DNA from: Bdellovibrio sp.
Lineage (GTDB): Bacteria > Bdellovibrionota > Bacteriovoracia > Bacteriovoracales > Bacteriovoracaceae
Assembly (NCBI GenBank): GCA_022729855.1
Contig: DZBG01000011.1
Coordinates: 1-39,747, forward strand
Length of the DNA stretch: 39,747 bases
Reading direction: 5' to 3'
A program made the position numbers and the translations under genes. Shown in pieces: positions 39,243 to 39,747 of the stretch. Position 1 is the stretch's first letter. Each line of letters starts with the position of its first letter. The notes beneath the pieces were generated by a model, which did not search any database, was not told where the DNA came from, and saw only the letters and a list, made by a program, of their open reading frames with translations.

Positions 39243-39319
39243 GCACCGGTAGCTCAGTTGGATAGAGCAACCGATTTCTAATCGGTAGGTCACAGGTTCG
39301 ACTCCTGTCCAGTGCGCCA
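39243..39319 (+). tRNA. tRNA-Arg (anticodon TCT)
   Basis: Full cloverleaf with encoded CCA (39317-39319). Anticodon stem CCGAT/ATCGG holds loop TTTCTAA, anticodon TCT, which reads AGA. D arm GCTC...GAGC and T arm ACAGG/CCTGT with TTCGACT loop are normal. The acceptor stem GCACCGG / CCAGTGC has one C-A mismatch at pair 5-68. The 3' 30 bases are also the antisense end of the recombinase gene. Confidence 0.95.
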
Positions 39320-39747
39320 TTTTAAATCTACGCTCATTTCCTTCAACAAAGCGAAAGGCTTTTTCAAATCATATCGAACGTTTGTACCATTCAAAGTCGG
39401 GTTCGATAGTATCATCTCCAAAACTTTCTTACGCTCCTCTGGTGATTGAGTAATCCACAATGATTTCGCATGAATGGCGAGTTCGATAACGGATTTACAA
39501 GTTTCATAAACTGAATCAGTGAGACTTCTTTGAAGAGCACGAAGTTGTCTCAAGAGTTCATCTTGTTCACCTCTAATTCGCTCCTGCTGTCGCTTAAAAG
39601 ATTCAGGAGTGAGAAGCCCATCATGGTACATATCAATGATTCGGTCTTCACGGGCACGAAGTATTTTTTGCTCATCCAAAAGAAGGTCAATTTGCTCCTT
39701 TAAGAAAGCAAGTGACATTAGAATATTTTTCTCCCTGTCCCCCTTTA
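39290..39747 (-). CDS. Serine recombinase (large), C-terminal part; continues past window
   Basis: Coiled-coil and tail of a large serine recombinase: LLLDEQKILRAREDRIIDMY, DGLLTPESFKRQQERI, then SPEERKKVLEMILSNPTLNG and KPFALLKEM, all typical of the region after the zinc-ribbon domain. The frame stays open beyond the ATG at 39718 to the window edge, so this is the 3' end of a longer gene, not a 142-residue protein. Its last nine codons (WRTGQESNL) and stop are the complement of the tRNA-Arg 3' half, so the integration crossover probably created this tail. It is the likely integrase of an element extending to the right. Confidence 0.85.
   Translation of the reverse strand, partial: KGDREKNILMSLAFLKEQIDLLLDEQKILRAREDRIIDMYHDGLLTPESFKRQQERIRGEQDELLRQLRALQRSLTDSVYETCKSVIELAIHAKSLWITQSPEERKKVLEMILSNPTLNGTNVRYDLKKPFALLKEMSVDLKWRTGQESNL

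Follow-up and report, generated by a model that had tools for sequence, protein, structure and literature searches.

To our knowledge, the large serine recombinases (LSRs) described so far as LI/A118-, phiC31-, Bxb1- and SPbeta-type integrases use protein-coding or intergenic targets. In the attachment sites of such enzymes, the zinc-ribbon motif covers bp 16-24 of the attP half-site and bp 11-19 of the attB half-site, which amounts to a shift of 5 bp (Rutherford 2013, PMC3783163). The 3' ends of tRNA genes are the classic target of tyrosine integrases, and according to a reference database of tRNA islands from 2015, serine integrases were not known to target tRNA genes (PMC4383910). In M. abscessus, tRNA or tmRNA sites are used by 16 of 23 tyrosine systems; tRNA sites were assigned to tyrosine integrases in a mycobacterial prophage survey, and the satellite-like elements of M. 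abscessus that carry serine integrases are described as integrating elsewhere than at tRNA or tmRNA sites (PMC10654092). In the portion available to us, the 2025 TIGER resource gives no breakdown of targets per integrase family (PMC12424338), so that tRNA-targeting serine integrases may exist in unpublished or tabulated form; the subscription literature lay mostly outside our search. A partial parallel is offered by streptococcal ICEs with a serine integrase in rumA, where integration exchanges the C-terminus of the integrase with the target. Like the elements described below, they have short direct repeats in the target and integrase genes, but they target one protein gene and not a set of tRNA genes (PMC4701971).

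The window analysed here is the complete contig C124 of 39747 bases. At its right end, an intact tRNA gene overlaps the tail of an LSR gene on the opposite strand, and the following features were assigned.

39243..39319, plus strand: intact tRNA-Arg with anticodon TCT (ARAGORN), its 3' half being the presumed former attB
39290..39694, minus strand: C-terminal remnant of an LSR with 134 aa kept (frame, homology, alignment A1)
39290-39292, minus strand: LSR stop codon, complementary to the tRNA-Arg 3' half
39293..39319, minus strand: last nine LSR codons, WRTGQESNL, host-encoded and antisense to the tRNA, with the Trp codon TGG complementary to the CCA end
39296..39301, plus strand: T-loop motif GTTCGA, the proposed zinc-ribbon motif of attB (from the sequence, and from partner sites in relatives, where it lies at 28 nt)
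39314..39319, plus strand: GCGCCA, counterpart of the minimal attL/attR core in relatives, with the crossover probably inside
39320..39345, plus strand: putative right arm of attP (element half of attL), overlapping the LSR frame (homology with G122)
39695..39747, no strand assigned: end of a multicopy, insertion-sequence-like repeat (family A) that cuts the LSR gene and closes the contig (copies at other contig ends)

An earlier note on this DNA had read the last nine codons and the stop codon of a large serine recombinase as the complement of the 3' half of tRNA-Arg(UCU), which both ARAGORN and the frame coordinates confirm. The assignment of the tail to an LSR is equally sound. In a search of 129 genomes, the 134-aa tail showed 42-51% identity to the nearest full-length LSRs over almost its entire length, and its first 126 residues, up to the conserved Trp518, correspond to residues 393-518 of the relative L090 (alignment A1). 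Relatives of the tail were found in 24 of these genomes, including its own. The open frame on the minus strand (39290-39745) leaves the contig at its right end, where the contig itself and not just the window stops. The frame had been taken for a recombinase that runs off the window; it does reach the end, but its outermost part is not recombinase. The last 53 bases (39695-39747) recur with 100% identity at approximately 16 contig ends of the same genome. Because these identical copies each join unrelated sequence, this stretch is the end of a multicopy repeat (repeat A), and thus the first 17 residues of the frame (KGDREKNILMSLAFLKE) are repeat-derived. Repeat A interrupts the LSR gene at a point that corresponds to residue 393 of 518. 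The remaining fragment has no Pfam domain above cut-off, and neither PF00239 (Resolvase) nor PF07508 (Recombinase), which together characterise an LSR, was found in the window's assembly; the C-terminal 134 residues alone remain. On sequence grounds, the window recombinase is a dead remnant that has lost its catalytic, recombinase, and zinc-ribbon parts. Alternatively, the cell could possess an uninterrupted gene, with the contig end a mere assembly break, as might be expected from a contig that stops within an open frame and from a repeat that is in frame with the recombinase. This is improbable, however: the same 53 bases precede unrelated sequence at about 16 other places, intact relatives differ in sequence ahead of the break point, and the assembly that lacks both domains is rated 99% complete. 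We thus retain the dead remnant. The earlier note had the element extending to the right and had itself named a dead remnant as a finding that would speak against its reading; such a remnant is what the window contains, an active recombinase continuing rightward is not supported, and the copy is inactive because repeat A cut the gene.

The same note called the pairing of an LSR with a tRNA gene unusual. This is true of the published record (PMC4383910), whereas in the bacterial family of the host the pairing is the rule. PF07508 is present in 76 of 129 family genomes. Among the 30 best loci, LSR frames end in or cross a tRNA gene in 13 cases and the tmRNA gene in four, and 18 of 25 homologues of the window tail do the same at tRNA or tmRNA genes. 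Taken together, 35 of the 55 LSR genes examined in the family genomes end inside or pass through one of these genes. One relative (L102 in G019) occupies the same isoacceptor as in the window, tRNA-Arg(tct), and a tree of 32 LSRs with 13 different targets requires at least 21 target switches. Both PF00239 and PF07508 score above cut-off in L090 and in the LSR of G122, which are thus LSRs by their domains, and among solved structures, that of the SPbeta integrase YokA (9dxh) comes closest. Additional relatives are present in Bdellovibrionota, Myxococcales, a deltaproteobacterium, and Nitrospira. Wherever tails of the window type run straight into a tRNA, the last conserved Trp lies on the complement of CCA and the T-loop at 23 nt; in the window tRNA-Arg, TTCGA likewise begins 23 nt ahead of the CCA end. 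An overlap that arose by chance, or from mobile DNA accumulating beside tRNA genes, might be suspected from the many repeat ends near tRNA 3' ends in the window genome. At more than 20 loci, however, the Trp codon coincides with CCA to the base, with the overlap always at the same side and on the same strand; together with the empty site described below, this makes such an origin extremely unlikely.

For 22 loci, stretches of up to 20 kb were taken on the element side. No extended repeats of the tRNA 3' end were detected in them; the repeats measure 13-16 bp at most and go down to 6 bp. Consequently, a search for short cores was carried out, in which attL and attR proved to have as little as the last 6 bases of the tRNA in common. 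Partner sites were not found within the stretch taken for about half of the loci. Where intact relatives, among them L102 at tRNA-Arg(tct), have one, it lies 7-31 kb away, an arrangement that bears out the proposal that the window contains the left edge of a formerly integrated element. The relatives also place the attachment core at the acceptor/CCA end, in agreement with the T arm/acceptor region suggested in the earlier note. The expected direct repeat of about 30 bp (39290-39319) did not materialise; the core in relatives can be as short as 6 bp, and no partner site was found for the window tRNA, the attR pattern TTCGA-N17-GCGCCA giving no match in its own genome. The body of the element is absent from the assembly as well.

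The partner sites differ from the tRNA in one consistent respect. In G118, the far site GCAGTTCGAAAGTCATCTACTAGGGTGCGCCA has the same end as the tRNA GGGAGTTCGAATCTCTCAGGGTGCGCCA, but the T-loop motif is placed 5 bp further out. The same displacement occurs in G067, G063, G122, G019, G141, and G060. In a scan of the 22 stretches, every site that ends in the same six bases as its host tRNA was taken, and GTTCGA (with at most one mismatch) was counted at each distance from it. A first set of loci, in which the spacing had originally been noticed, yielded 10 motifs at exactly 28 nt, whereas other distances averaged 0.35 (Poisson 6e-12, relatedness ignored); the tRNAs themselves have the motif at 23 nt. 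A second set, chosen afterwards, yielded four against 0.29 elsewhere (Poisson 2e-4, relatedness ignored), two of which carry one mismatch and may be chance matches. The opposite strand has no GTTCGA at 28 nt in either set. The scanned loci are related to each other and hence not fully independent; independent of the initial observation are the second set, the junctions without a tRNA, and the empty site. At four LSRs that are not next to a tRNA (L112, L114, L166, and L170), the motif lies at 28 nt beside the LSR, as expected of an unsplit attP. In 9 of 12 loci of the second set, the other half of attP carries the motif in inverted form at +14, which places the centre of symmetry near tRNA bases 71-72. 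In one subclade, symmetry suggests that these two bases, GC or GT, are the central dinucleotide. GC is self-complementary, which would be odd for the central dinucleotide of a serine integrase.

The +5 spacing most likely represents the known shift of the LSR zinc-ribbon motif between attP and attB, and a short core combined with a 5-bp shift of this motif, both hallmarks of LSR sites, is found in the intact relatives. Instead of a recognition motif, GTTCGA at 28 nt might also be what decay has left of a tRNA 3' end that was once duplicated. This reading would fit the partner sites of G118 and G122, which match 11-13 bases of the tRNA acceptor strand. Yet the motif is found at exactly 28 and not 23 nt in at least seven genomes at different tRNAs, whereas the T-stem bases between motif and end are not conserved. 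Decay would not repeatedly yield an identical gain of 5 bp, and a shift of the same size is known from well-studied LSR sites (PMC3783163). Decay is thus an unlikely source of the motif, and a shifted recognition motif is the preferred interpretation.

A comparison of two genomes of one genus delimits an intact element. Past attR of the G122 element lie a terminator-like hairpin and the gene for a 392-aa protein. In G134 (L216), an intact tRNA-Glu(ttc) is followed immediately by the same junction, CCAAATTTATAAA, the same hairpin, and the gene for the 392-aa protein. G134 hence has an empty site where G122 has an integrative element. Because tRNA-Glu(ttc) of G134 joins the DNA beyond the predicted attR, the G122 element measures 9.8 kb and is bounded as the spacing rule predicts. 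The empty site also assigns the side that corresponds to 39320..39345 of the window to element DNA, and these bases are therefore taken as element-derived. Besides the LSR, the G122 element encodes a small resolvase, an SSB, a D5-type primase, and proteins of unknown function. In the G118 element, genes for a primase and a resolvase are accompanied by those for a DNA methyltransferase and a DndB-like protein, and one product weakly matches a restriction enzyme. For the latter element no empty site was found, its outer flank having no conserved neighbour in the genus.

An ordinary tyrosine integrase located elsewhere on the elements could in principle drive entry into tRNA genes, with the serine recombinase a passenger at the end. 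The preference of tyrosine integrases for tRNA 3' ends (PMC4383910) makes this conceivable, as does a tyrosine-integrase-like tail near tRNA-Leu(taa) in the window genome (C89, L022). In the G122 element with its known boundaries, however, no tyrosine integrase domain was detected among the ORFs scanned, and the LSR and the small resolvase are the sole recombinases among them. Moreover, the core is as short as 6 bp where a longer tRNA fragment would be expected, the half-sites have the serine-specific 5-bp shift, and the gene at the junction is the LSR. A tyrosine integrase is thus a very unlikely driver, and we attribute entry to the LSR. On the best reading, the window thus holds what decay has left of attL, the left end of an integrative element inserted into tRNA-Arg(TCT) by an LSR.

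A scheme built from sequence comparison would account for these patterns if the relatives are active. For the integrase, attB would be the 3' half of a tRNA or tmRNA gene; its zinc-ribbon domain would probably contact the T-loop GTTCGA there, approximately 16-20 bp from a crossover within the last six tRNA bases (..GCACCA). This crossover position would put GTTCGA in or at the edge of both published zinc-ribbon windows. The attP site would bear GTTCGA 5 bp further out and copy part of the acceptor 3' strand, so that the tRNA would be restored upon integration. The integrase gene would abut attP and read into it, and its last codons after integration would thus be host tRNA antisense, with Trp TGG opposite CCA; the tail past this Trp would be host DNA and should change upon integration. 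Nearly all tRNAs possess the T-loop and the CCA end, so that a new target would demand changes only in the short segment separating the two. This would allow frequent target switching, and the presence of the T-loop in tRNAs and tmRNA alike would explain such switching among related enzymes. In the window, a copy of repeat A would have cut the recombinase gene after the element had entered. We consider it highly likely that the account as a whole is correct, namely that the window contains a decayed attL in tRNA-Arg(TCT) and that LSRs of its relatives recognise the T-loop and CCA end of tRNAs and switch between tRNA genes. It is also likely that one LSR clade, with the T-loop GTTCGA as zinc-ribbon motif and the CCA end as crossover site, has jumped repeatedly among tRNA and tmRNA genes in Bdellovibrionota and some neighbours.

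These enzymes resemble the LI/A118, phiC31, Bxb1, and SPbeta (YokA) integrases in their Resolvase and Recombinase domains, the short core, and a zinc-ribbon motif that lies 5 bp nearer the centre in attB than in attP (PMC3783163). They differ from the described members of this group in their tRNA and tmRNA targets and in that the proposed motif is the T-loop itself. The elements share with the Islander class of tyrosine-integrase islands the tRNA/tmRNA 3' end as target, the restored tRNA, and possibly tandem stacking, but have a serine enzyme, a core as short as 6 bp, and a shifted T-loop mimic in place of a long tRNA fragment. The G118 and G122 elements are also reminiscent of satellite-like elements with P4/D5-type primases: both carry a D5-like primase, to which G122 adds an SSB, their sizes are 10-15 kb, and none of their scanned ORFs was recognised as a virion gene. 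Unlike those satellites, the elements here have a serine integrase at a tRNA gene, and their hosts are related to predatory bacteria (Bdellovibrionota). An LSR clade that targets tRNA genes and has an evident site-reading rule provides a naturally occurring set of related enzymes that differ in their targets, which could help to learn how serine integrases shift specificity, and offers integration tools for tRNA 3' ends. Island finders that expect long tRNA repeats will overlook such elements.

Several further observations concern the elements and their cargo. In G063:C8, G067:C144, and G118:C42, several att-like sites occur in a row or a second LSR-type arm is found at the far site, which points to elements that have accumulated in tandem at one tRNA; those in G063 would belong to two different LSR subclades. 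At 10900-15200 of L115 (G118:C42), the G118 cargo combines an N6/N4 DNA methyltransferase with a DndB/DpdB-like protein and a product that weakly matches a type II restriction enzyme, possibly a restriction-modification system. A 33-kb viral contig from IMG/VR (L176) has a related LSR at its end, whose own end is tRNA-like antisense; judged from the ORF reading, this LSR adjoins a RecT-like gene.

Repeats also mark other places in the window genome (G000). A second LSR-like remnant with its end inside tRNA-Asp(gtc) is likewise cut by repeat A, again in frame with MSLAFLKE (L016, G000:C27). The putative C-terminal tail of a tyrosine integrase, recognised from its translation, lies approximately 200 bp from tRNA-Leu(taa) and adjoins nested repeat ends, a family B end being inserted in a family A end (L022, G000:C89). 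About 8 of 16 family A ends are found 200-450 bp from a tRNA 3' end, far more than expected at random among the sampled contigs with that end. A preference of repeat A for one orientation toward tRNAs was considered and dropped, as the sample consists of contigs carrying that single end only. An exact 22-mer from the end of repeat A had no match in genome_contigs. IS110 was considered as a name for repeat A but not adopted: an IS110 transposase of G022 has an 84% similar end, but in a single copy there; the G022 protein has no match in the window's own assembly, and no partner end sharing the terminal sequence was found. The G022 locus (L058 1-1700, G022:C9) has the IS110-type transposase at 165-1211; after it comes a 42-bp stretch whose identity to repeat A is 84% and which may be related to the repeat. 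Overall, the contigs of the window genome (L009-L022) break at several repeat families, A to F. Family A ends in ..CTTTCTTAAAGGAG and family E in ..GATGCGTAGCCCC, while B and F have AAATGAGGACACGCCCTA and C and D have GTTGCACTAGGAAA in common; each of these two pairs looks like the two ends of an insertion sequence.
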